Of a stretch of DNA of 30,059 nt, positions 8,512-26,849 are shown one piece after another (the stretch's first letter is position 1; the number at the start of each line of letters is the position of its first letter). The DNA comes from a virus. Where the stretch lies: IMG/VR virus record IMGVR_UViG_3300044733_001596, positions 1 to 30,059 of that record; one strand, written 5' to 3'. Below the pieces are notes generated by a model. It was not told the origin of the DNA. It worked only from the letters and a program-made list of their open reading frames with translations, and ran no database searches. The position numbers were made by a program, and so were the translations under genes.

Positions 8512-8908
8512 AGAACTATTTAAAATCCATGAACAAATATGCAATGAAGCATTAGAACTCATGAAAAAGAAAAACCATGACTATGCTGGTAAATCTGGAA
8601 ATGATCCATTTGCCAACTTTACTAGAGCAGAAGCCATGGGAATCACAACGACTGAAAAGGGAATGCTTGTCCGAATGCTCGACAAGATGAGTCGTTTATC
8701 TTCTTTTATGGATGCAAAAGAATTCAAAGTTGAAAATGAAAAATTAGAAGATACGATTAAGGATATGATAAATTACTCTATTCTTTTATATGCATACATG
8801 CAAGATAAGAATGAGTCACCACCATATACTGACATTGATTATATTGATATAGAGTGGAATAATAAGGGTGGAATTGTTCCTGATTCAGAAGATCCGAAGG
8901 TAGTATGA
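8501..8908 (+). CDS. DUF1599 (nucleotide-modification-associated) protein
   Basis: The 135-residue protein has the pattern 'KKNHDYAGK...DPFANF' near residues 23-39, then a helical MLDKMSRLSSF segment and a KDMINYSILLYAY segment. I recognise this as the DUF1599 family, found mostly in phages and often near nucleotide-metabolism genes. The family is helical and related in architecture to MazG-type nucleotide pyrophosphohydrolases, but its biochemistry is not settled. It overlaps dut at its start and the polymerase gene at its stop (ATGA), so it is part of a tight operon. A role in nucleotide-pool quality control is an inference from position. Confidence 0.7.
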   Translation: MRSEELFKIHEQICNEALELMKKKNHDYAGKSGNDPFANFTRAEAMGITTTEKGMLVRMLDKMSRLSSFMDAKEFKVENEKLEDTIKDMINYSILLYAYMQDKNESPPYTDIDYIDIEWNNKGGIVPDSEDPKVV

Positions 8909-10389
8909 GCTTTTATACAAATGTTTATTATACAGGATCTTCGATTCTGTTACGTCAAATCACAGATAAAAAAACAGAAAAGGCGAGAGTAAACTTCTCG
9001 CCATCTCTATTTTTGATTTCATCAAAAAATAGTAATTTTAAGACTGTAGACGGAAGATATGCAGATGAAATTACTTTTACAAATGTTCATGAAATGAACG
9101 ATTTTAAGAAAACATATGAAAATGTTGATAATTTTGAAATTCATGGAGATATTGACGCAAAGTATCAATATATTTCAAAGGAATTTGGAACTGAGTGTGA
9201 TTATAATTTCAATGATATCGGTGTGATGTATATCGATATGGAAACGACATGTGAAAATGGATTTCCATCTATTGAAAATCCAGAAGAAAAAATTATAGCA
9301 ATCACGTGTAGTTTTAAGGGAAAGACATATGTTTATTGTCTTGGTGATTTTACTAGAGATGATGCAAATATTATCATCAATGAATATCACGATGAACAAC
9401 AACTGTTGAGAGAATTTATTCATTTCATGCAAGATAAGCAACCAGAAATCATAACTGGATGGAATGTTAGATTTTTCGATATTCCATATCTTGTAAATAG
9501 ATGCAAAAAAATTCTTGATGAAAAAGAAGTCAAGAATCTTTCTCCATGGGGAATAATTAAAGATAGCATAGTCAACAGTCGTGGCGAAGATAAGGTCGTC
9601 TATGATATTGTTGGAATTTCTATTCTGGATTACTATGAACTTTATCGAACATTCACTTATGTAAATCAAGAATCATATAAACTTGATCATATTGCTTATG
9701 TTGAATTGGGTGAACGAAAGATTTCATATTCTGAATATGAAAATATGAGTGACTTTTATAAGAAGAATTTTCAGAAGTTTATTGAGTATAATATCAAAGA
9801 CGTTGAACTTGTTGAACGTCTTGAAGAAAAGCTTCGTCTTATTGAACTAGCTGTTGCATTGGCATATTCTGCTGGTGTAAATTATAATGATGTATTTTCT
9901 CAAGTCAGAACATGGGATGTTATCATTTATAATTATCTCAAGAAGAACGGCATCATTATTCCACCAAAAAAGAATAATGTAAAAGATGAACAATATGCAG
10001 GAGCATATGTAAAAGAGCCATTGGTAGGAATGCACGATTGGGTAGTCTCATATGACGTTAATTCCCTATATCCTTCTCTAATAATTCATTTTAATATTTC
10101 TCCAGAAACTTTACAAAACAAGAATTTCAAAGGAAAAATTAATATTCAAGATATCTTGAATAAGAACAAAAATTCAGAAACATTCAAATGCTTTGATGAG
10201 GCAAAGAAAGTAAATTGTTCTATTGCGGCAAATGGAACACTTTATACAAATAAAAAACGTGGGTTTCTTCCAGAACTCATGGATAAGATGTATAAAGAAC
10301 GCAAACAATTCAAAGATAAGATGATTGAAGCCAAGAAAGATCTAGAAGCAATTAATAACGAATTGAAGAAAAGGGGCTTGCAAGTCTAA
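8905..10389 (+). CDS. 43: DNA polymerase family B, N-terminal part (split gp43)
   Basis: This 494-residue piece carries the 3'-5' exonuclease and the first half of the polymerase palm. Visible motifs are Exo I with D111 and E113 (YIDMET), Exo II around N187 to D192 (GWNVRFFDIPYL), Exo III with Y295 and D299 (YNIKD), and polymerase motif A at D384 (DVNSLYPS). It stops at KKRGLQV in what should be the helical fingers. Motifs B and C are absent and sit in the gene at 18358. Together the two pieces make 865 residues, close to T4 gp43. The end looks like a designed stop rather than decay, because the frame is intact to the finger helix. Its start overlaps the DUF1599 stop (ATGA). Confidence 0.92.
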   Translation: MSFYTNVYYTGSSILLRQITDKKTEKARVNFSPSLFLISSKNSNFKTVDGRYADEITFTNVHEMNDFKKTYENVDNFEIHGDIDAKYQYISKEFGTECDYNFNDIGVMYIDMETTCENGFPSIENPEEKIIAITCSFKGKTYVYCLGDFTRDDANIIINEYHDEQQLLREFIHFMQDKQPEIITGWNVRFFDIPYLVNRCKKILDEKEVKNLSPWGIIKDSIVNSRGEDKVVYDIVGISILDYYELYRTFTYVNQESYKLDHIAYVELGERKISYSEYENMSDFYKKNFQKFIEYNIKDVELVERLEEKLRLIELAVALAYSAGVNYNDVFSQVRTWDVIIYNYLKKNGIIIPPKKNNVKDEQYAGAYVKEPLVGMHDWVVSYDVNSLYPSLIIHFNISPETLQNKNFKGKINIQDILNKNKNSETFKCFDEAKKVNCSIAANGTLYTNKKRGFLPELMDKMYKERKQFKDKMIEAKKDLEAINNELKKRGLQV

Positions 10390-10411: not shown

Positions 10412-10948
10412 ATGAACGTGATTGATTACTATAAGAATTGGGAAGTAAACGCGATCATTGGTGATCTTGATACAAAGCGAAAGAACTTTACTGTACTTTG
10501 CAGCAATGTTGAGAATGATTTTAATATTGCAACAGCGATTCGTAATTCAAATGCATTTTTGGCAAATGAGGTATGGATCTATGGAAAGAAGCAATATGAT
10601 CGTCGTGGTACTGTAGGTACTCATAACTATACTCACTTCAAGCATGTTAAGACTATTTGTGATGTAATTGAAGAAGTTAAGGCTCTTGAGAAGCGAGTAG
10701 GAAGTGTTAGGATTATTGGTATCGATAATGTTCAGAATGCCATGCCAATCAATCATTATGCATGGCCAAAGCATGAACACATTCTCATGATTTTTGGCCA
10801 GGAAAAGGATGGAATTCCAAAACTTCTGCTTGACATGTGTGACGATATCCTGTATATTAAGCAGTATGGAAGTGTGAGAAGTTTGAATGTAGGAACAGCA
10901 AGTGGTATTGCAATGTATTCTTATTGTGAATACCTTGAGCGAGATTGA
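10412..10948 (+). CDS. SpoU/TrmH-family RNA 2'-O-methyltransferase
   Basis: The 178-residue protein shows the three SpoU motifs. Motif 1 is NIATAIRNSNAF with N38 and R44, motif 2 is MIFGQEKDGIP at about residues 127-136, and motif 3 is SLNVGTASGIAMY at residues 157-169. This is the knotted (SPOUT) fold that moves a methyl group from S-adenosylmethionine to a ribose 2'-OH in tRNA or rRNA. The N-terminal extension is short, so it is nearly a minimal catalytic domain, as in TrmL. The gene lies just 8 bases before a tRNA-Leu(UAA), a class of tRNA that TrmL methylates at the wobble position in E. coli. TrmH-type Gm18 modification is an alternative. It begins with a leaderless promoter. Confidence 0.82.
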   Translation: MNVIDYYKNWEVNAIIGDLDTKRKNFTVLCSNVENDFNIATAIRNSNAFLANEVWIYGKKQYDRRGTVGTHNYTHFKHVKTICDVIEEVKALEKRVGSVRIIGIDNVQNAMPINHYAWPKHEHILMIFGQEKDGIPKLLLDMCDDILYIKQYGSVRSLNVGTASGIAMYSYCEYLERD

Positions 10949-11054: not shown

Positions 11055-11807
11055 ATGAAGCAAACACTTTTTATATCAGACCTTCACATAGCATCTAACA
11101 AATGTAAAGCAAAACTCTTATCTGAATTTATTAAAAAGGATGAGAGTTCTTGTCTTTATTTGGTGGGTGATATCATTGATATTTGGCGTTTCAATCAGGC
11201 ATTCAAGATGGATATTGAAACTCAGACCCATCATGTAGATTGTATTCGTCGCTTACTCAAGAAATCAAAACACGGAGAAGTCCATTATATTTGGGGAAAC
11301 CACGATGAGTTTATGCATCGTTTTTCTGAGTCAAAATCTTTCGGTGGAGTTCATCTGCACGAAAGATGTGACTATACAGCATCTGATGGAAGAAGATACC
11401 TAGTTCTTCACGGTCATCAGTTTGACTTGGTATGTAAATACAAAATCGGAACATTCTTATCTAAGATCGGTGATTTTGGATATGAATGGTTAATTGACAT
11501 CAATGAATGGTATAACTGGGTACGTAAAAAGATGGGTCTTCAATATTCTTCACTTTCCAAGTATGTGAAGGTGAAGTTTAAGAAGGCAACAATGTTCATT
11601 GGAAACTTTGAAAAGCATCTTTCAGAATACGCAGAGAAGCATGGATATGATGGAGTAATTTGCGGTCATATTCACGAACCAGCCGATAAGATGATCGGTA
11701 AGATTCATTATCTCAACTGCGGTTGTTGGACTGATGAAGCAAATCTCAACTATCTGATTGACAAAGGTGATGGAAGTGGTATAATTCTATGCAGACACGA
11801 AAAATGA
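11055..11807 (+). CDS. LpxH-like metallophosphoesterase
   Basis: The 250-residue protein has all motifs of the calcineurin-like phosphoesterase fold: D9-L-H11, G38-D-x-x-D42, G81-N-H-D84, H119-G-H121 and C203-G-H-I-H207. The set and size match the UDP-2,3-diacylglucosamine hydrolase (LpxH) branch and related bacterial proteins, which use two metal ions. LpxH makes lipid X in lipid A synthesis. Whether this phage protein has that substrate is not shown. A nucleotide or phospholipid substrate is possible. It follows tRNA-Leu and overlaps the next gene as ATGA. A cytosolic enzyme is expected, as no signal peptide is visible. Confidence 0.75.
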   Translation: MKQTLFISDLHIASNKCKAKLLSEFIKKDESSCLYLVGDIIDIWRFNQAFKMDIETQTHHVDCIRRLLKKSKHGEVHYIWGNHDEFMHRFSESKSFGGVHLHERCDYTASDGRRYLVLHGHQFDLVCKYKIGTFLSKIGDFGYEWLIDINEWYNWVRKKMGLQYSSLSKYVKVKFKKATMFIGNFEKHLSEYAEKHGYDGVICGHIHEPADKMIGKIHYLNCGCWTDEANLNYLIDKGDGSGIILCRHEK

Positions 11808-11941
11808 AATACTTTTTTGAAGACTATGTTCTTTATCCTCTAGTATACATTGGATTGTGTATTGGAGCATTAGCAGCAAGTTTATGTTTTTTACTGTGGG
11901 ATACTTTAGTTTTTGTATTTAGTCTTGGAAAAAAGAAATGA
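11804..11941 (+). CDS. Single-pass membrane micropeptide (45 aa)
   Basis: It starts within the stop of the phosphoesterase (ATGA) and ends in an ATGA with the next gene. The central stretch LVYIGLCIGALAASLCFLLW is hydrophobic and long enough to span a membrane, preceded by a short N-terminal segment (MKYFFEDYV) and ended by a basic KKK tail. No family is recognised. Coupling to the phosphoesterase upstream hints at a shared envelope role, but this is inference. Confidence 0.55.
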   Translation: MKYFFEDYVLYPLVYIGLCIGALAASLCFLLWDTLVFVFSLGKKK

Positions 11942-12117
11942 AAAAAGAAGAACTCATTGAAAACATTGAAATCCTCGCAGATAAATGTGAGGAGTTGATT
12001 AAGGAACGTGATCAAGCAAGACGACTTGTTTGTAAATATACAAAGAAAACTTATCACACGCTCAAGGAAACCGCAGAACTACGAGGATGGGACTGCTACA
12101 AGGAGAACACACAATGA
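11938..12117 (+). CDS. Small coiled-coil protein (59 aa)
   Basis: The frame begins and ends with ATGA overlaps with its neighbours. It encodes MKKEELIENIEILADKCEEL, then a charged helix containing IKERDQARRL and TLKETAEL; heptads of Leu/Ile suggest a short coiled coil. No domain is recognised. Its last codons contain the AAGGAG ribosome-binding site of the PEP-CTERM gene. Confidence 0.5.
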   Translation: MKKEELIENIEILADKCEELIKERDQARRLVCKYTKKTYHTLKETAELRGWDCYKENTQ

Positions 12118-12740
12118 AGACACTAATCGCAACAGCATTTATCGCAACGGCAGCACACGGAACTGGGACTCTCTGCACCTTTGAGAATCTTCCTGCTCCA
12201 ACAACTCCTAGTATGAGTTCCGCTACCACGGGATTCTATTGGGATTACCTCTCCTCATACGAGGGATTCCACTTCACAAGTTCATCTTCCCAAGGCAACT
12301 TCCAATGGGCATACTACGATCTCGTTGGTGGTGGGGGATACGCAGGATACGATGAGGGAATCATCGGGGATCGTGCTTTGTTCACCCCGTGGGGTTCTGA
12401 GCAGAACAAGAACTACCGCATTCGTCGTGATGATCTTTGGATTCTCAACAGCATTGAAGTCACATCGGTTTGGAATTCGACCGCAGTAGTTATAGAGGGA
12501 TACCGATACGGGGAGGGTGTGTTTACCTATACTACACAACTCACAGCAGCACAGCGGGTAAAACTAAACATCTCCTCTGGATATCCTGGTCCGCTTAACA
12601 ACATCACAGAGATCAAAATCTACACCAACACATTTAGTTCCCATCTCGCTATCGATAATCTCAACTACACGGTGGTTCCTGCACCATCGGCACTTGCCCT
12701 GCTTGCGATTGCTGGTGCGGTTGGAAGGCGGCGACGATGA
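12114..12740 (+). CDS. Secreted PEP-CTERM surface protein
   Basis: I place the start at 12114, inside the longer frame, because AAGGAG lies 8 bases before it and the ATGA overlap with the preceding gene fits. The 208-residue product starts with a signal-like MKTLIATAFIATAAHG. Its core is Gly/Ser/Tyr-rich beta sequence, including CTFENLPAP and IDNLNYT, in the style of bacterial PEP-CTERM surface proteins. The C-terminus is a VPAP motif, a hydrophobic helix (ALALLAIAGAV) and GRRRR. That tail is a sorting signal cut by exosortase, which a phage would borrow from its host. GC content is about 50%, against near 35% for neighbours, so recent acquisition is likely. A PEP-CTERM protein in a phage is unusual. 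Confidence 0.8.
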   Translation: MKTLIATAFIATAAHGTGTLCTFENLPAPTTPSMSSATTGFYWDYLSSYEGFHFTSSSSQGNFQWAYYDLVGGGGYAGYDEGIIGDRALFTPWGSEQNKNYRIRRDDLWILNSIEVTSVWNSTAVVIEGYRYGEGVFTYTTQLTAAQRVKLNISSGYPGPLNNITEIKIYTNTFSSHLAIDNLNYTVVPAPSALALLAIAGAVGRRRR

Positions 12741-12910
12741 AAGATATTGCCTATGAACTTCGCGTTCTGACCAAAAGGCAAGATCTTCCACCCGATGTAA
12801 TTCGTACAATTTCAGAGGCATATGCTGAGATTGTGGAACTTCGTAGTCAAGTAAGCAAATACGCTCTGGAAGCGATCACTCGCTTCGATGAAGAGAATGG
12901 ACTATTATAA
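12737..12910 (+). CDS. Small hypothetical helical protein (57 aa)
   Basis: It starts within the stop of the PEP-CTERM gene (ATGA). The protein begins MKDIAYELRVLTKRQDLPPD and continues as charged helices (EIVELRSQVSKYALEAITRF). No domain is recognised. Its base composition resembles the GC-rich neighbour more than the AT-rich genes that follow, so it may have arrived with the PEP-CTERM gene. Confidence 0.5.
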   Translation: MKDIAYELRVLTKRQDLPPDVIRTISEAYAEIVELRSQVSKYALEAITRFDEENGLL

Positions 12911-12931: not shown

Positions 12932-13177
12932 ATGAAAAAAGATCTAAAGCAAGCAAAAAAGAATTGCGAATATATTGCAAAGATCAAAACAGAACGAGGC
13001 TGTTCTAAATGTGGTTATAATTTACACCCAGCCGCGTTAGAATTCCATCATCTACAAGACAAAAAGCATAATATCTCCCGTATAGCACGTTCAGGAGTAC
13101 CAGCAAATATTCTTGAAGAAGAAATTAAAAAATGCGTGGTTGTCTGTGCTAATTGTCATAGAATAGAACATTCATGA
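12932..13177 (+). CDS. Small HNH endonuclease
   Basis: The 81-residue protein has a zinc-binding pair C24/C27 (CSKC), the HH core at residues 39-40 (LEFHHL), and C72-x2-C75-H76 with H80 (CANCHRIEH). This matches the compact HNH nuclease domain, in which a histidine and metal cut DNA. Little beyond the domain is present, so substrate and target are unknown. Phage HNH genes are often mobile homing endonucleases, and this one lies inside the island that separates the two polymerase gene halves. That makes a role in island mobility possible. It overlaps the next frame at ATGA. Confidence 0.8.
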   Translation: MKKDLKQAKKNCEYIAKIKTERGCSKCGYNLHPAALEFHHLQDKKHNISRIARSGVPANILEEEIKKCVVVCANCHRIEHS

Positions 13178-17063: not shown

Positions 17064-18107
17064 ATGAGTAAAGTGGCACTGATTACTGGAATTTGTGGAC
17101 AGGATGGATCATATCTAAGTCAATTATTGATATCCAAGGGATATGAGGTTCATGGTATTATTCGAAGATCTTCTTCTTTTAATACTGGAAGAATCGATCA
17201 TCTTATAAATGATCCAGAAATTTATAATAAAAAATTATTTTTACATTTTGGTGATTTGACAGACTTCAATAGTCTTCAAAAAATTATAACAAAATATTCT
17301 CCAGATGAAATTTATAATCTTGGTGCTCAAAGCCATGTTAAAGTTTCATTCGATATGCCAGTATTTACTGGAGAGACAACTGGAATCGGAACATTAAATC
17401 TTTTAGAAGCCATACGAACATTTGAAGAACAAACTGGTAAAAAGATTCGATATTATCAGGCCAGCAGTTCGGAGATGTATGGTAAGGTTCAAGAAGTTCC
17501 TCAAAAAGAAACAACACCGTTTTATCCTCGTTCACCGTATGGATGTGCAAAAGCTTATGCACATTATCTCACTGTGAATTATCGTGAAAGTTATGATCTA
17601 CATGCTTCATGTGGAATTTTGTTTAACCACGAAAGTCCGCGTAGAGGAGAAACATTCGTAACAAGAAAAATCACAAGAGCAGTTGGTAGAATTTATCAAG
17701 GATTACAAAAGAAACTATATCTTGGTAATTTAGATGCATATCGTGATTGGGGATTTGCTGGAGATTATGTTGAAGCCATGTGGCTGATGCTACAGCAAGA
17801 TAAACCAGATGATTATGTTGTTGCAACTGGTAAGATGATTACCGTAAGAGAATTCTGTCAAAAAGCTTTTGCAAGATATAGTATGAATTATTTGGATTAT
17901 GTTGAAGTTGATGAAAAATATTATCGTCCAGCAGAAGTAGATCAATTATTGGGAGATTCAACTAAAGCTAAAAGTAAATTAGCTTGGACACCAAAGGTTA
18001 ATATCAATGAATTGATTGACATGATGACAGATCATGATTTTGAACTTGCCAGAAAAGAACGAATCATAGAAATATATGATAAAAAATTAAATCCAACTGG
18101 CCCATGA
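17064..18107 (+). CDS. gmd: GDP-mannose 4,6-dehydratase
   Basis: The enzyme converts GDP-D-mannose to GDP-4-keto-6-deoxymannose, the first step toward fucose, rhamnose-like and perosamine sugars in surface polysaccharides. Visible marks of the extended short-chain dehydrogenase fold are the NADP-binding G9-x2-G12-x2-G15 (GICGQDG), the '[14 protein letters not shown]' substrate segment, a SSSEMYG site at residues 134-140 and Y159-x3-K163 (YGCAK). Its 347 residues match the family. It stands alone, with no GDP-fucose synthase or glycosyltransferase in the window, so its product probably feeds host enzymes or other phage genes. It resembles metabolic genes carried by some marine phages. Confidence 0.92.
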
Positions 18108-18155: not shown

Positions 18156-18383
18156 ATGAAATATGGTCTGCATTTTACCAATACCTCGAAAGAAGAAGAT
18201 TGGCTCAGGGAATCAGATAAGTCTATATGTATTTGGAATAGTGCTGATGAAGCAGATGATTGGCGTAAGAAACATACAGTAAATCCTAAGATTTATGATG
18301 TTAAAAAAGTAACGCCAAAAATAATTAAAGAAGATCAAGAAAAATATGGAAGTAACAATGAACGATCTTTCAAAATTGAGTGA
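18156..18383 (+). CDS. Small hypothetical protein, operon leader gene
   Basis: The 75-residue protein starts MKYGLHFTNTSKEEDWLRES and continues with acidic and aromatic residues (WNSADEADDWRKKHTVNPK). No domain is recognised. Its end overlaps the polymerase fragment by 26 bases. As the first gene of the operon on a leaderless transcript, it would be translated from the 5' end and could couple translation to the polymerase fragment behind it. Confidence 0.6.
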   Translation: MKYGLHFTNTSKEEDWLRESDKSICIWNSADEADDWRKKHTVNPKIYDVKKVTPKIIKEDQEKYGSNNERSFKIE

Positions 18384-19473
18384 TAATGAATTGTTATCAT
18401 TGAAGCATAAAACAGAATTAGATATTTCAAAGTATCATAATTTTCAGTTAGTCCGTAAAATTCAATTGAATTCAGCTTACGGTGCTATTGGTAATGCGTA
18501 TTTTAGATTCTATAATACTGATTTGGCCGAGGCAATCACATTGTCAGGCCAATTGTCTATTCAATGGATTGGAAATAGATTAAATGAATTAATTAATAAA
18601 GTAACTAATTCAGATAATAAGGATTTTATCATTGCATCAGACACAGATTCAATTTATCTTAAAATTGATGATGTCGTAAATCAATATGCATCTAATAAAT
18701 CAATTATAGAAAAAATTGATTATATTGATTCATCATCTAAAAATATCATTTTGCCATATATTGAAAAGCAGTTCGACAGTCTAGCAAATATGATGAATGC
18801 ATTTGAAAATAGAATTGTTATGGCAAGAGAAGTTATTGCAGACAAGGGTGTATGGACTGCAAAAAAGAGATATATGTTAAATGTCTGGGATTCAGAAGGC
18901 GTTCGTTATAGTCAACCTAAACAAAAAATCATGGGAATTGAAACTTCACGATCATCTACTCCAGAGGTTGTTCGTAAAGAATTAAAGAATGCCATCAGCA
19001 TTATTCTCAACAAAGATGAAAATGAATTGATTGACTTTGTTGCAAAATTCAAATCTAAATTCATGAAAATGAGTGTAGAGGAAATTTCTTTTCCACGTAG
19101 TGTAAATGGACTTGATAAGTATAGAGATTCTTCTCAAATTTATAAATTGAAGACTCCTATTCAGGTAAAGGCTGCTTTGTTGTATAATCATTACATCAAG
19201 GAAATGAAATTGAGTATGAAATATACTAAAATTTCAGAAGGTGAAAAGATTAAATTTGTATATCTTAAAAAGCCCAATCCATTGGCAGGAACACAGGGAG
19301 AAGATTGTGTAATTGGATTCCCGAATAAAATGCCAAAAGAGTTTGATCTTGACAAATTTATTGATCGTGAAAAACAATTTGAAAAAGCATTTCTTGATCC
19401 ACTGATAAAGATTCTAGATATCATTGGATGGAAGGCAGAAAAAACAAACACTCTAGAATCACTTTTTATATGA
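18358..19473 (+). CDS. 43: DNA polymerase family B, C-terminal part (split gp43)
   Basis: This 371-residue piece carries polymerase motif B with K34, N38, S39 and Y41 (KIQLNSAYG) and motif C with D95 and D97 (SDTDSIY), then the thumb. It joins the N-terminal part at 8905, which holds motif A and the exonuclease. A GGAAG ribosome-binding site lies five bases before ATG 18358; a further in-frame ATG at 18346 would add four residues. The C-terminal NTLESLFI resembles a sliding-clamp-binding tail as in T4 gp43. The N-terminal helix (MNDLSKLSDNELLSLKHKTE) is an extra finger segment that would meet the KKRGLQV end of the other piece. I expect the two chains to assemble into one enzyme. Confidence 0.92.
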   Translation: MNDLSKLSDNELLSLKHKTELDISKYHNFQLVRKIQLNSAYGAIGNAYFRFYNTDLAEAITLSGQLSIQWIGNRLNELINKVTNSDNKDFIIASDTDSIYLKIDDVVNQYASNKSIIEKIDYIDSSSKNIILPYIEKQFDSLANMMNAFENRIVMAREVIADKGVWTAKKRYMLNVWDSEGVRYSQPKQKIMGIETSRSSTPEVVRKELKNAISIILNKDENELIDFVAKFKSKFMKMSVEEISFPRSVNGLDKYRDSSQIYKLKTPIQVKAALLYNHYIKEMKLSMKYTKISEGEKIKFVYLKKPNPLAGTQGEDCVIGFPNKMPKEFDLDKFIDREKQFEKAFLDPLIKILDIIGWKAEKTNTLESLFI

Positions 19474-19481
19474 GGTAAAAC

Positions 19482-20510
19482 ATGTCTGATTTTTTAAGCA
19501 AAATGATTAAATCTTCTGGTAATAAATTCGCATCTATCGTTGATGATGGTCTTGATGGAAGCGATGTTACTGGTTTCACTGATACTGGTAGTATGATGCT
19601 AAATGCACTTCTGTCAGGATCACTTTATGGTGGTATGGCAAACAACAAAATCGTAGCATTGGCAGGAGAAGCCGCCACTGGTAAAACTTATTTTACCATC
19701 GGTATTCTTTCAAAGTTCCTTCAAGATAATCCTGAAGGCGTTGTAGTATACTTTGATACAGAACAAGCAGTGACATCTGATATGTTCAAGAGTCGTGGTG
19801 TTGATCCTAAACGTGTTGCTGTATTTCCTGTAGCAACAATCGAAGAATTTAGATTCCAATCAATTAAAATCGTAGATGATTATTTGAATGAAGAAGAATC
19901 TAATAGGAAGCCTATGATGATTGTTCTTGATTCTCTTGGTATGTTGTCAACCTCTAAAGAAATCAATGATACAACAGAAGGTAAAGAAGTTCGTGATATG
20001 ACACGTGCTCAAGTTATCAAGTCTACTTTCCGAGTCTTGACTCTAAAACTTGGAAAGGCAAAGATTCCAATGATTATGACTAATCATACGTACTCCATCG
20101 TGGGTGCTTATGTTCCTACCTCTGAAATGGGTGGTGGTACAGGTCTTAAGTATGCTGCATCAACAATTGTATATTTGAGTAAGAAGAAGGATAAGGATAG
20201 TGAAGGTGATATTGTTGGTAATATCATTAATTGTAAGTTGTATAAATCACGCTTCACTAAAGAAAATAAAACTGTTTCGGTTAAACTGAATTACGAAACT
20301 GGTCTTGATCGTTATTATGGATTAGTTGACCTTGCTCTTGAATCTGGTGTCTTTACAAAGACAAGTACTCGTATTACACTACCAGATGGAAGCACTGCAT
20401 TTGAAAAGAACATCTACGAAAATCCAGAAAAGTATTTCACAAAAGAAGTTCTAGAAAAATTGGAAAAAGCAGCAAGTAAAGAATTTAAATATGGCTCAAG
20501 TGAACTTTGA
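19482..20510 (+). CDS. uvsX: UvsX RecA-like recombinase
   Basis: The 342-residue protein is a RecA-family strand-exchange ATPase. The Walker A motif G62-EAAT-G67-K68-T69 and a [10 protein letters not shown] segment near residue 88 are clear, as is [10 protein letters not shown] (Walker B) near residue 147. Its size is close to T4 UvsX. It promotes strand invasion in recombination-dependent replication. A GAGGT ribosome-binding site precedes the ATG. Its stop lies 20 bases inside the start of the helicase gene, tying expression of both. Confidence 0.9.
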
Positions 20511-23778: not shown

Positions 23779-25704
23779 ATGAATAATTTACCAAGTCAGT
23801 ATCAGGAATTTATTTACAAGTCACGTTATTCTCGCTGGATAGAATCAGAAAATAGACGAGAAGAGTGGCCAGAGACAGTAAAGCGTTATTTTGATTTTTT
23901 TGAGTCACATCTTAAGGAAAATCAAAGTTATATCTTATCAGCAGAACTTCGTTCTGAACTCGAATCAGCGGTTCTAAATTTAGAGGTAATGCCATCCATG
24001 CGGGCTTTAATGACCGCAGGAGAGGCTTTGAAACGAGATAACGTAGCAGGATATAATTGCTCTTATGTGGCCGTAAATAATATTCGTGCCTTTGATGAAA
24101 TTCTATACGTCCTCATGTGTGGTACTGGCGTTGGATTTAGTGTGGAGAGACAATATGTTGAGAAACTTCCTACAATCGCTGAACACTTTACTAATTCAGA
24201 TACCACTATTATCGTTCAGGACAGCAAAGTTGGTTGGGCTAAAGCATATCGGGAACTCGTATCCCTACTTATTGGAGGTCAAATTCCAAAATGGGATGTG
24301 TCTAAAGTACGTCCTGCTGGTGCAAGACTCAAAACATTTGGTGGTCGAGCTTCGGGGCCAAGACCCCTCGTTGATCTCTTTCAATTCACCGTTGATACTT
24401 TTAAGAGAGCGGCAGGAAGAAAGCTTACTTCCATCGAATGTCACGATATTGTTTGCAAGATCGCAGAGATTGTCGTTGTCGGAGGCGTTAGACGCTCTGC
24501 GCTTATTTCTTTGTCCAATCTCACGGACGAACGAATGCGAGATGCTAAAAGCGGTGCTTGGTGGGAACAAAACCCTCAACGAGCCTTGGCAAATAATTCA
24601 GTTGCCTATAAAGAGAAGCCAGAAATTGGAATTTTCATGGAAGAATGGATCTCTCTCTATAAGTCCAAAAGTGGTGAAAGAGGCATCTTCAATAGAGAAG
24701 CGGCAAAGAAAACTGTTGCAAAACTAGGTGATCGTCGTGATTCTTCCTATGACTTCGGAACGAATCCATGTTCAGAAATTATTCTTCGTGATCGTGAATT
24801 CTGTAATCTTACAGAAGTTGTAATTCGTGCGGATGATACACAAGATAGTGTTGCTCGCAAGATACGAATTGCAAGTATTCTTGGTACTTGGCAAGCATCA
24901 CTTACCCACTTCCCGTATCTCTCTTCTACATGGAAGAAGAATTGTGAAGAAGAAGCACTCCTTGGTGTTTCTCTTACAGGTATTTTAGATAATCCATTAA
25001 TGGGTAGTAAGGATCACCGTCTATTATCTGGAGTTCTAGAAGATCTTAAGAAAGTAGCAATTGATGCAAACAAGGAATGGTCTGATAAACTTGGTATAAA
25101 TCCTGCTGCTGCAATTACTTGTGTAAAGCCTTCGGGAACAGTTAGTCAATTGACCGATGCTGCGTCTGGTATTCATGCTCGTCACAGCGAATATTACATT
25201 CGTACAGTTCGTGCGGATCGTAAGGATCCATTGTGTCAGATGATGATTGATCTTGGATTCCCCGCAGAACCATGCGTAATGAAACCAGATCATACAATGG
25301 TATTCTCATTCCCAATGAAGGCAGTTGGTTCAATTACTCGTAATGATTTGACTGCAATTGAACATCTTGAATTGTGGTTGACATATCAACGTCATTGGTG
25401 TGAACATAAACCATCCATTACCATAACTGTTCGTGAACATGAATGGATGGAGGTTGGTGCTTGGGTATATAAGCACTTCGATGAGATTAGCGGTATTTCT
25501 TTCTTACCACACTCCGATCACTCATATCGTCAAGCACCATATCAGGAATGCACTGAGATCGCATATACTACATTATCTGTGGAAATGCCTAAGAATGTAG
25601 ATTGGTCGCTTCTCAAGAATTATGAAAAAGAAGATAAGACTGTAGGTACACAGACATATGCGTGTAGTGGTGATAAATGTGAACTTGTTGATCTTACTAC
25701 ATAA
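23779..25704 (+). CDS. nrdJ: Adenosylcobalamin-dependent ribonucleoside-triphosphate reductase (class II)
   Basis: The enzyme reduces NTPs to dNTPs using a B12-derived radical. Key residues of the monomeric RTPR family are present: C94 (YNCSYV), the thiyl-radical cysteine C331 in NPCSEI with Glu333, C342 eleven residues on, and the C-terminal pair C-x4-C (YACSGDKC) that passes electrons. The spacing C331-C342 matches 408-419 of the Lactobacillus enzyme. At 641 residues it is shorter than that 739-residue enzyme. Being class II it needs host cobalamin. An AAGGAG ribosome-binding site precedes the ATG. It ends the early operon before a strong terminator. Confidence 0.92.
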   Translation: MNNLPSQYQEFIYKSRYSRWIESENRREEWPETVKRYFDFFESHLKENQSYILSAELRSELESAVLNLEVMPSMRALMTAGEALKRDNVAGYNCSYVAVNNIRAFDEILYVLMCGTGVGFSVERQYVEKLPTIAEHFTNSDTTIIVQDSKVGWAKAYRELVSLLIGGQIPKWDVSKVRPAGARLKTFGGRASGPRPLVDLFQFTVDTFKRAAGRKLTSIECHDIVCKIAEIVVVGGVRRSALISLSNLTDERMRDAKSGAWWEQNPQRALANNSVAYKEKPEIGIFMEEWISLYKSKSGERGIFNREAAKKTVAKLGDRRDSSYDFGTNPCSEIILRDREFCNLTEVVIRADDTQDSVARKIRIASILGTWQASLTHFPYLSSTWKKNCEEEALLGVSLTGILDNPLMGSKDHRLLSGVLEDLKKVAIDANKEWSDKLGINPAAAITCVKPSGTVSQLTDAASGIHARHSEYYIRTVRADRKDPLCQMMIDLGFPAEPCVMKPDHTMVFSFPMKAVGSITRNDLTAIEHLELWLTYQRHWCEHKPSITITVREHEWMEVGAWVYKHFDEISGISFLPHSDHSYRQAPYQECTEIAYTTLSVEMPKNVDWSLLKNYEKEDKTVGTQTYACSGDKCELVDLTT

Positions 25705-25805: not shown

Positions 25806-26849
25806 ATGGCACTACTAAAATACTACAACTCAAAAATACATGATCTTTATCTTTATGATCGTTTAGCAACCACAACTCAGTCATCTATTCCTGTTGGATA
25901 TAATCCAGATTGCCAATCATATGGAATTGCTGATTTTTCTGGTTGTTGTGCCAGAAATCGACATTTTTGTACTTTAATTGGAATTACATATGGTGTTCAA
26001 TTTGATCGTGAAAATGTTAATTTTTGGAATTGTTGTGCATACAGAGGAGTTCTTATCTCTCCAAAACATATGATTATTTGTGAACATTTCCGTGGACCAA
26101 GACCAGATCCAAATGATAATACATCTGGAATTGTTCTTCTTGGTAAATCTGGTATTCGTCATACTGTTAAAGTTGTTGCTGTAACTTTAAGTATAGGTTC
26201 CGACCAAACACTACTTGAGTTTGATCAACCAGTTCCAGAAGGAGAATTTTATATTTACAATAAGATCGCTGATCCTGCTTATGTTCCTAATGGAACACAT
26301 ATATGGGTTCAAGATTCTAATGGAAAAATTTATAAAAGAATTTTCAAAAAGGCAATATTTGTTGATGGAAAATTAACAGCGTGGCAAAGTGATCCATGTA
26401 TTGATGGTATAAATGATGGTCCTCATACAAGTGGAGATCCTGCAATATTCGTCGGTGATTCTGGTTCTCCCGCATTTGTTGTTAATTCAGAAGGAGAAAC
26501 ACTTCTATTAGGTTTAATGTATGGTGGACCTAATTTCCCACAAAAGACAATTGATAATATTAATGCAAAACTAAATCCACACGGATATAGTGTCAGTTTA
26601 GAAAAAATGACAGCACTTCCACAGGATTTAAATCAAGATGGAAAAATAGACAGTGTAGATTTGAGTATCTTTATGTCTAATTGGGAAGTAAATGGTGAAA
26701 TCGCTGATTTTAACAAAGATGGAAAAGTTGATGCTGAAGATATGTCAGAACTTCTTTCTAAGTGGGGTAGTTATGATTTATCTTCTAGTGCAGTTCATTA
26801 TACTACTACGGTTACTCCAATAGATCCAAATAATACTAAAAGAATCTGA
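25806..26849 (+). CDS. Trypsin-like serine protease with C-terminal dockerin
   Basis: The 347-residue protein has a chymotrypsin-type triad: H94 (ICEHF) after LISPKHM, D133 (SDQTLLEF) and S219 in GDSGSP. Residues 274-320 are a tandem pair of EF-hand-like calcium loops, DLNQDGKIDSVDL and DFNKDGKVDAEDM, each followed by a short helix, which is the layout of a type I dockerin. No signal peptide is visible. The N-terminus (MALLKYYNSKIHDLYLYDRL) is unlike protease prodomains and may attach the protein to the particle. A late promoter implies virion or lysis timing. Such dockerins are common in Planctomycetota proteins and rare in phages. Target and export route are unknown. Confidence 0.8.
   Translation: MALLKYYNSKIHDLYLYDRLATTTQSSIPVGYNPDCQSYGIADFSGCCARNRHFCTLIGITYGVQFDRENVNFWNCCAYRGVLISPKHMIICEHFRGPRPDPNDNTSGIVLLGKSGIRHTVKVVAVTLSIGSDQTLLEFDQPVPEGEFYIYNKIADPAYVPNGTHIWVQDSNGKIYKRIFKKAIFVDGKLTAWQSDPCIDGINDGPHTSGDPAIFVGDSGSPAFVVNSEGETLLLGLMYGGPNFPQKTIDNINAKLNPHGYSVSLEKMTALPQDLNQDGKIDSVDLSIFMSNWEVNGEIADFNKDGKVDAEDMSELLSKWGSYDLSSSAVHYTTTVTPIDPNNTKRI

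Follow-up and report, generated by a model that had tools for sequence, protein, structure and literature searches.

A T4-like phage gene for a predicted exported protein with an exosortase-type C-terminal tail

Why would a phage carry, among its replication genes, a gene whose product looks like a bacterial surface protein? The question is raised by P1, whose gene lies in an IMG/VR virus record that spans 30,059 bases; the whole record was analyzed and is called the window below. An earlier note, made from the letters of the sequence, had described the product as a PEP-CTERM surface protein of a T4-like phage, with a signal-like N-terminus, a secreted core rich in beta structure and a tail made of VPAP, a hydrophobic helix and GRRRR. 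It had also remarked that GC content is near 50% in the gene and about 35% around it, and that both of its ends overlap neighboring genes as ATGA. The features concerned are the following.

12114 to 12740, plus strand: P1, predicted exported protein with an exosortase-type tail, 208 amino acids (open reading frame, Pfam and NCBIfam scans, relatives)
12114 to 12164, plus strand: signal-peptide-like N-terminus of P1, residues 1-17 (by eye; conserved in relatives)
12675 to 12737, plus strand: C-terminal tail of P1, VPAPSALALLAIAGAVGRRRR, residues 188-208 (Pfam and NCBIfam; helix at 193-206 in a low-confidence model)
11938 to 12117, plus strand: small open reading frame of 59 amino acids with an ATGA overlap with the P1 start (reading of open frames)
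12737 to 12910, plus strand: small open reading frame of 57 amino acids with an ATGA overlap with the P1 stop (reading of open frames)

The description of the protein and its gene was borne out. Translation runs from the ATG at 12114 to the TGA at 12738-12740, and both overlaps are present, with the frames at 11938-12117 and 12737-12910. The start region, in which KTLIAT is kept among phage relatives, resembles a signal peptide as assessed by eye, and the tail reads directly as V-P-A-P, then 12 mostly hydrophobic residues, then G-R-R-R-R. P1 has a GC content of 49.3%, and 6 kb of flanking sequence one of 33.5%.

Membership in the PEP-CTERM family was then judged against curated models. PEP-CTERM-type models were the top library matches of P1, all under their curated cut-offs: 14.7 bits for Pfam PF07589 (cut-off 20.7), 13.7 bits for TIGR02595 (cut-off 16) and 23.2 bits, with an E value of 5.2e-5, for NF038120, the top NCBIfam match (cut-off 80). 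Across four scanned P1 copies NF038120 scored 20-26 bits against the same 80, and it matched residues 134-208 of a sister copy at 1e-5. On reading of the sequence, P1 has the hydrophobic stretch of about 14 residues and the C-terminal basic cluster of a PEP-CTERM tail, but lacks the strict Pro-Glu-Pro of PEP-CTERM sensu stricto (TIGR02595/PF07589), a motif described as near-invariant (Haft 2006). The Pro-x-Pro form is P-A-P in the window, P-[ATV]-P in P1 relatives and P-[AST]-P in P2, a second phage family described below. Low scores accompany this P-A-P form, and most of the proteins scanned from the presumed host class also score low: against the Pfam PEP-CTERM model six of them gave 14.0, 14.6, 17.6 and 18.4 bits and, for two, no match, and against TIGR02595 (NCBIfam) nine gave 20.2, 15.4, 15.4 and 13.8 bits and, for five, no match. 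P1 is thus not a strict PEP-CTERM member. Judging from its residues, and from a comparison of form made with Planctomycetota alone, its tail is of the exosortase type, in the P-A-P form of planctomycetes, so that this much of the earlier claim stood while the strict motif and the curated cut-offs were missed. Together with the missing motif and the low scores, two observations count against the exosortase sorting proposed below: the end of the tail is variable, certain P1 copies finishing AGISTNRRR or RRRRSK, and in several P1 pairs the pN of the tail is not lower than that of the core.

The surrounding genes were assigned with PHROG, Pfam and NCBIfam profiles.

8905 to 10389, plus strand: 43A, N-terminal half of a split T4-type DNA polymerase (phrog_262, 6.9e-167)
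10412 to 10948, plus strand: TrmH/RlmB-like methyltransferase (matches under curated cut-offs)
11055 to 11807, plus strand: calcineurin-like metallophosphoesterase, weakly LpxH-like (PF00149, 54.2 bits; NF003743, 5.5e-10, under cut-off)
12932 to 13177, plus strand: HNH endonuclease (phrog_2255, 2.9e-19)
17064 to 18107, plus strand: GDP-mannose 4,6-dehydratase, GMD (TIGR01472, 526.3 bits, cut-off 415)
18346 to 19473, plus strand: 43B, C-terminal half of the split T4-type DNA polymerase (phrog_262, 1.2e-133)
19482 to 20510, plus strand: UvsX-like recombinase (phrog_97, 6.9e-85)
23779 to 25704, plus strand: ribonucleotide reductase, whose homologue directly precedes P2 in sister phages (phrog_367)
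25806 to 26849, plus strand: type I dockerin protein, at the place of P2 in sister phages (PF00404, 32.9 bits, cut-off 22.9; NF041540, 25.2 bits, cut-off 29)

The T4-like character of the phage was corroborated by PHROG matches to gp43 (in its two halves), UvsX, a DnaB-type helicase (gp41-type) and a DNA primase (gp61-type); further matches in the window are to thymidylate synthase and ribonucleotide reductase. P1 sits between 43A and 43B. The two halves are about 8 kb apart. Most genes in this gap are small; among them are the HNH endonuclease gene and two for tRNAs (Leu and Tyr), and the content of the gap varies among sister phages. The earlier note had named an outcome that would speak against it, in which P1 matched phage structural proteins only and its homologues had no such tail; this did not occur, and no PHROG family, structural ones included, matched P1 at E<=0.01. 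Among INPHARED phages no match to P1 was found, and comparison of window positions 6,000-30,059 with that collection ("near" mode) returned a single match of 116 bases, in GMD. The late-promoter pattern TATAAATA occurs 9 times in the window against 3.75 expected, a number reached by 2 of 100 shuffles. None of the 9 lies directly upstream of P1, and one precedes the dockerin gene by about 30 bases. The product of the latter, present in seven other viral contigs, has 347 amino acids, a C-terminal dockerin and, by eye, a trypsin-like GDSG motif without a signal peptide. Six contigs besides the window carry, on the 3′ side of ribonucleotide reductase, a cassette of exported proteins whose composition varies. 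By eye its members include outer-membrane-barrel-like proteins and long proteins that start with dockerin-like repeats; two dockerin proteins exceed the Pfam cut-off, and the cohesin-like proteins gave one weak Pfam match (17.1 bits against 24.1).

A base composition unlike that of the flanks could point to a host gene caught recently and useless to the phage, a moron in transit, and the earlier note had offered a stray host gene as its alternative. The GC content of P1 speaks for this explanation, and the history of the gene among phages speaks against it. Relatives of P1 occur in 22 viral contigs besides the window (13 in the first scan, 2 more in the next, 22 in the final count), at 33-100% identity; five of these rows are distant (33-42% identity), and this count, like that for P2, includes near-copies and fragments. 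The gene is also kept in place, as the earlier note had proposed to check: in 12 of 16 records, window included, P1 is linked to 43A and/or 43B with the order kept, both halves being on the contig in 5 of the 12, and four of the 12 (again with the window) having identical marker proteins. Among the exceptions, one record has P1 elsewhere on the opposite strand and three show neither half. All 11 copies examined have a higher GC content than the sequence around them, two of them by less than 3 points, and in 6 of these 11 the upstream frame stops at +4 of the P1 start, giving the ATGA coupling. Values of dN/dS were 0.16-0.28 in all 13 pairs computed by the Nei-Gojobori method (11 copies, two of them identical, give 55 possible pairs), with synonymous sites close to saturation in the more distant pairs, and in the core pN was below pS in all 13. 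P1 is under purifying selection. On conservation, dN/dS and ATGA coupling we reject the stray-gene explanation as extremely improbable.

Several further observations were made at these loci. By eye, the P1 relative of one additional contig (L247) occupies the same polymerase gap, another small protein, whose start resembles a signal peptide, lies directly 3′ of P1 in two contigs, and a small membrane-anchored protein lies 5′ of it in five. A distant relative (33% identity) on L237 (3300010885_011380; 55,574 bases) has a tail of exactly the host form and, nearby, a further protein with a signal-like start; this contig may be a phage, a prophage or a host piece of another kind.

If the tail matters to these phages, it might recur on other proteins. 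A regular expression for the tail, run over the contigs of P1 relatives, led to the discovery of P2, found in 52 contigs by scan and 55 in the final count; with the 22 contigs for P1, and 3 that hold both, the two families occupy 74 contigs, the window not counted. Within 31 phage contigs, which had been preselected for holding P1 or P2, the expression matched 31 of 7,799 open reading frames of at least 60 amino acids, 30 of them P1 or P2. A degenerate DNA pattern of the tail, run over IMG/VR viral contigs, matched 49 stretches, every one of them P1 (15) or P2 (34). It is this recurrence in relatives that places the P1 tail beyond chance. In BLASTP the best join between P1 and P2 lay in their final 20 residues (6e-5 in one of the comparisons). 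Profile comparison joined their first 67 columns, mostly signal region, with 95% probability from shallow profiles; because of this second join we dropped the view that the two are unrelated and call them very different.

By flank markers, 52 P2 loci were divided into 21 T4-like, 9 of which depend on the ribonucleotide reductase homologue alone, 26 T7-like and 5 unassigned, and two of the last five could be placed through other parts of their contigs, one as T4-like and one as T7-like. Tail sheath and baseplate PHROGs mark the T4-like contigs, and a single-subunit RNA polymerase and connector PHROGs the T7-like ones. P2 lies at most about 1.3 kb downstream of the ribonucleotide reductase gene in 9 of 10 T4-like P2 contigs examined, the exception being G453. 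Besides P2, that same contig encodes a protein of a third kind that ends in VPAP, a hydrophobic stretch and basic residues and has no clear signal peptide (L193:3304-3849). In the P2 tree, which leaves out two broken copies, two cut ones and a duplicate, T4-like and T7-like copies are mixed, with 4 changes for T7. Since the starred branches force just one change, several exchanges of P2 between the two kinds of phage are suggested, not shown. One P2 copy (L057; G013:C1:9097-9758) appears frameshifted, through a real break or an assembly error, and the broken copy of this contig was left out of A4. The GC content of P2 is above that of its flanks in just 6 of 11 copies. Its core shows strong conservation. 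That two unrelated phage lineages carry P2 suggests a need common to both in one kind of host.

Which host could that be, and would it possess the enzyme? Two short P2 patterns were run against 84,980 genomes of bacteria and archaea; this search, which detects close relatives only, gave 7 stretches and one confirmed relative, 49% identical, in a Planctomycetota MAG. The contig carries chromosomal genes (by eye clpC, nadB and an arginase-like gene), and the MAG has 2 exosortases. For the P1 profile the genome scan gave 20 pattern stretches, with no confirmed relative among them. The two checks on the bacterial side that the earlier note had proposed, for an exosortase in the host and for bacterial homologues, came out in its favor when the class of the MAG, the presumed host class, was searched through 397 genomes sampled from a larger group. 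An exosortase is present in 388 of the 397. The P1 profile (E<=1e-3) matches at least 82 and the P2 profile at least 60 of them, both mostly through the tail; these counts are lower bounds, since the class searches that used alignments scored no more than seven candidates from any one genome. Among the P2 matches listed, seven span most of the core. The P1-tail profile reached 2.3e-13 on host-class loci. As these had been selected by their profile matches, neither this result nor those for the cores, given next, come from independent samples. With the tail removed, the P2 core matched the protein of the MAG at 4e-74 and another two proteins at about 1e-16. The P1 core in its initial profile gave nothing convincing (best 0.097), and, with two distant phage relatives added, it matched host-class proteins at 9.7e-7, 5.4e-6 and 3.5e-4 among 1,831 open reading frames, the best shuffled frame being at 4.7. 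Dockerin domains of the GC type occur in 58 of 150 class genomes, above cut-off in 30. Taken from P2, the tails and the dockerin rather than from a direct link for this phage, the host of these phages is probably a member of the Planctomycetota, and the tail would then be a sequence tag by which phages of this phylum may be recognized.

The phages themselves appear to bring the substrate alone. No exosortase (PF09721, E<=1) was found in 69 virus records (14 + 50 + 5), namely the window and 68 of the 74 P1 or P2 contigs, which are fragments or of unstated completeness and of which the longest have 156,618 and 168,426 bases. For these records we therefore rejected a phage-borne exosortase, and processing of the tail, if any, falls to the enzyme of the host. 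This result, together with a tail common to two very different proteins and best joined there by BLASTP, would also suit a decoy: P1 and P2 might flood the host exosortase, or its export route linked to exopolysaccharide, and thereby keep the host from installing its own surface proteins. The matrix would be weakened, adsorption of kin or release of progeny eased, and the tail would matter more than the core. The conservation of both cores, seen for P1 as purifying selection in the 13 pairs, disfavors such a scheme, as a mere decoy needs no core, and we consider it unlikely.

What the cores might do was approached with structure models. The P1 model (mean pLDDT 54, from 11 sequences) shows beta strands and a C-terminal helix; its best structural match was the RetS sensor domain (Z 7.3), followed by surface-glycan-binding and carbohydrate-binding domains, all within the chance range. 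The model was too weak for a fold name, which we gave up, and a search of the PDB gave no sequence relative. The P2 model is firmer (mean pLDDT 81, from 22 sequences). At E<=0.001 the only Foldseek match was a capsid chain of PBCV-1; in a second comparison Z scores were 12.2 for a phi812 baseplate protein, 11.6 for Cwp84 and 11.0 for Bxb1; another Cwp84 entry, whose title names a lectin-like domain, gave 11.5. Cwp84 is an S-layer-associated protein with a lectin-like domain. From the models, P2 may plausibly bind surfaces in the manner of a lectin; for P1 this is only a guess. The proximity of P2 to baseplate and tail proteins as well as Cwp84, and the terminase, tail or core genes that flank it in 17 of 26 T7-like loci, could alternatively mean that P1 or P2 is carried by progeny particles or released into the lysate and is a glycan-binding protein derived from host surface proteins. 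Yet a signal-like N-terminus and an arginine-bearing membrane-anchor tail would direct the protein out of the cytoplasm, where virions are assembled, and P1 lies among replication genes and matches no PHROG. We regard a virion or release role as very unlikely.

A displayed protein could also act as a colonization or aggregation factor, sticking infected cells to particles or to one another and so increasing local transmission. PEP-CTERM proteins are reported to be necessary for floc formation (Gao et al. 2018, as cited in PMC12642866), the structural matches include carbohydrate-binding-like folds, and the phage carries a dockerin protein; a lytic cycle, however, may be too short for such a gain. 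We judge this use of the protein to be distinctly unlikely.

The reading that we prefer is that P1 is sorted by the host exosortase, is displayed on the infected cell and masks its surface glycans, most likely against superinfection. As a whole this reading is tentative, falling just short of an even balance. We infer the following course. P1 would be translated from the replication-gene region and cross the inner membrane by means of a Sec-type signal peptide, and would be held there by the C-terminal hydrophobic helix and the arginines. A host exosortase would recognize the VPAP tail and cleave it off, and the predicted beta-sandwich core would be sorted to the outer envelope like the host's own PEP-CTERM-type proteins; the phage would thus provide the substrate and borrow the enzyme. 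A lectin-like or carbohydrate-binding-like core might then cover or occupy surface glycans and keep further phages from adsorbing. That P1 is a substrate of the host exosortase is, in our estimate, very likely, and its display on the surface is likely; superinfection block or receptor masking is a possible but doubtful benefit.

An envelope-directed phage would fit the neighborhood of P1, with its predicted GMD, a calcineurin-like phosphoesterase weakly like LpxH and the type I dockerin protein. We speculate further that Planctomycetota phages, T4-like and T7-like, share a surface-display program, in which P1, P2 and the dockerin and cohesin-like proteins would remodel the surface of the infected cell through the sorting machinery of the host; we hold the chances for and against this to be about equal. 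If true, viruses would for the first time have been described as making use of exosortase sorting. As the phages have kept two kinds of PEP-CTERM-type protein, with P1 under purifying selection, a surface role of such proteins becomes testable.

Like the substrates of PEP-CTERM/exosortase systems (EpsH; TIGR02595, PF07589, PF09721), P1 has a signal-like start, a Pro-x-Pro motif, a hydrophobic stretch and terminal arginines, and the form of its tail is that of proteins in an exosortase-bearing class of Planctomycetota. Unlike them it is phage-encoded, has P-A-P in place of Pro-Glu-Pro, scores below the cut-offs and belongs to phages whose tested records hold no exosortase. The NF038120 (QFxxD) family of PEP-CTERM proteins comes closest among the NCBIfam models, yet P1 is no member by that model. 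T4 Imm and Sp and T5 Llp are small phage proteins that reach the host envelope during infection by inner-membrane or lipoprotein routes. P1 resembles them as a small phage protein with a proposed envelope destination, and differs from them in its proposed route, exosortase sorting; we know of no superinfection-exclusion or surface-modifying phage protein that is sorted in this way. In viruses of Yellowstone hot springs, horizontally acquired genes of the TIGR03118 family, with a putative exosortase interaction domain, have been reported (PMC11003980). These proteins are of a different family from P1, and the passage that mentions them gives a count alone, without gene context, conservation or mechanism. 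In the open-licence literature on PEP-CTERM or exosortase together with phages or viruses, we found no description of phage-encoded exosortase substrates. Alteration of the host surface by phage proteins is known; against that literature, routing by an exosortase is the new element that P1 would add.
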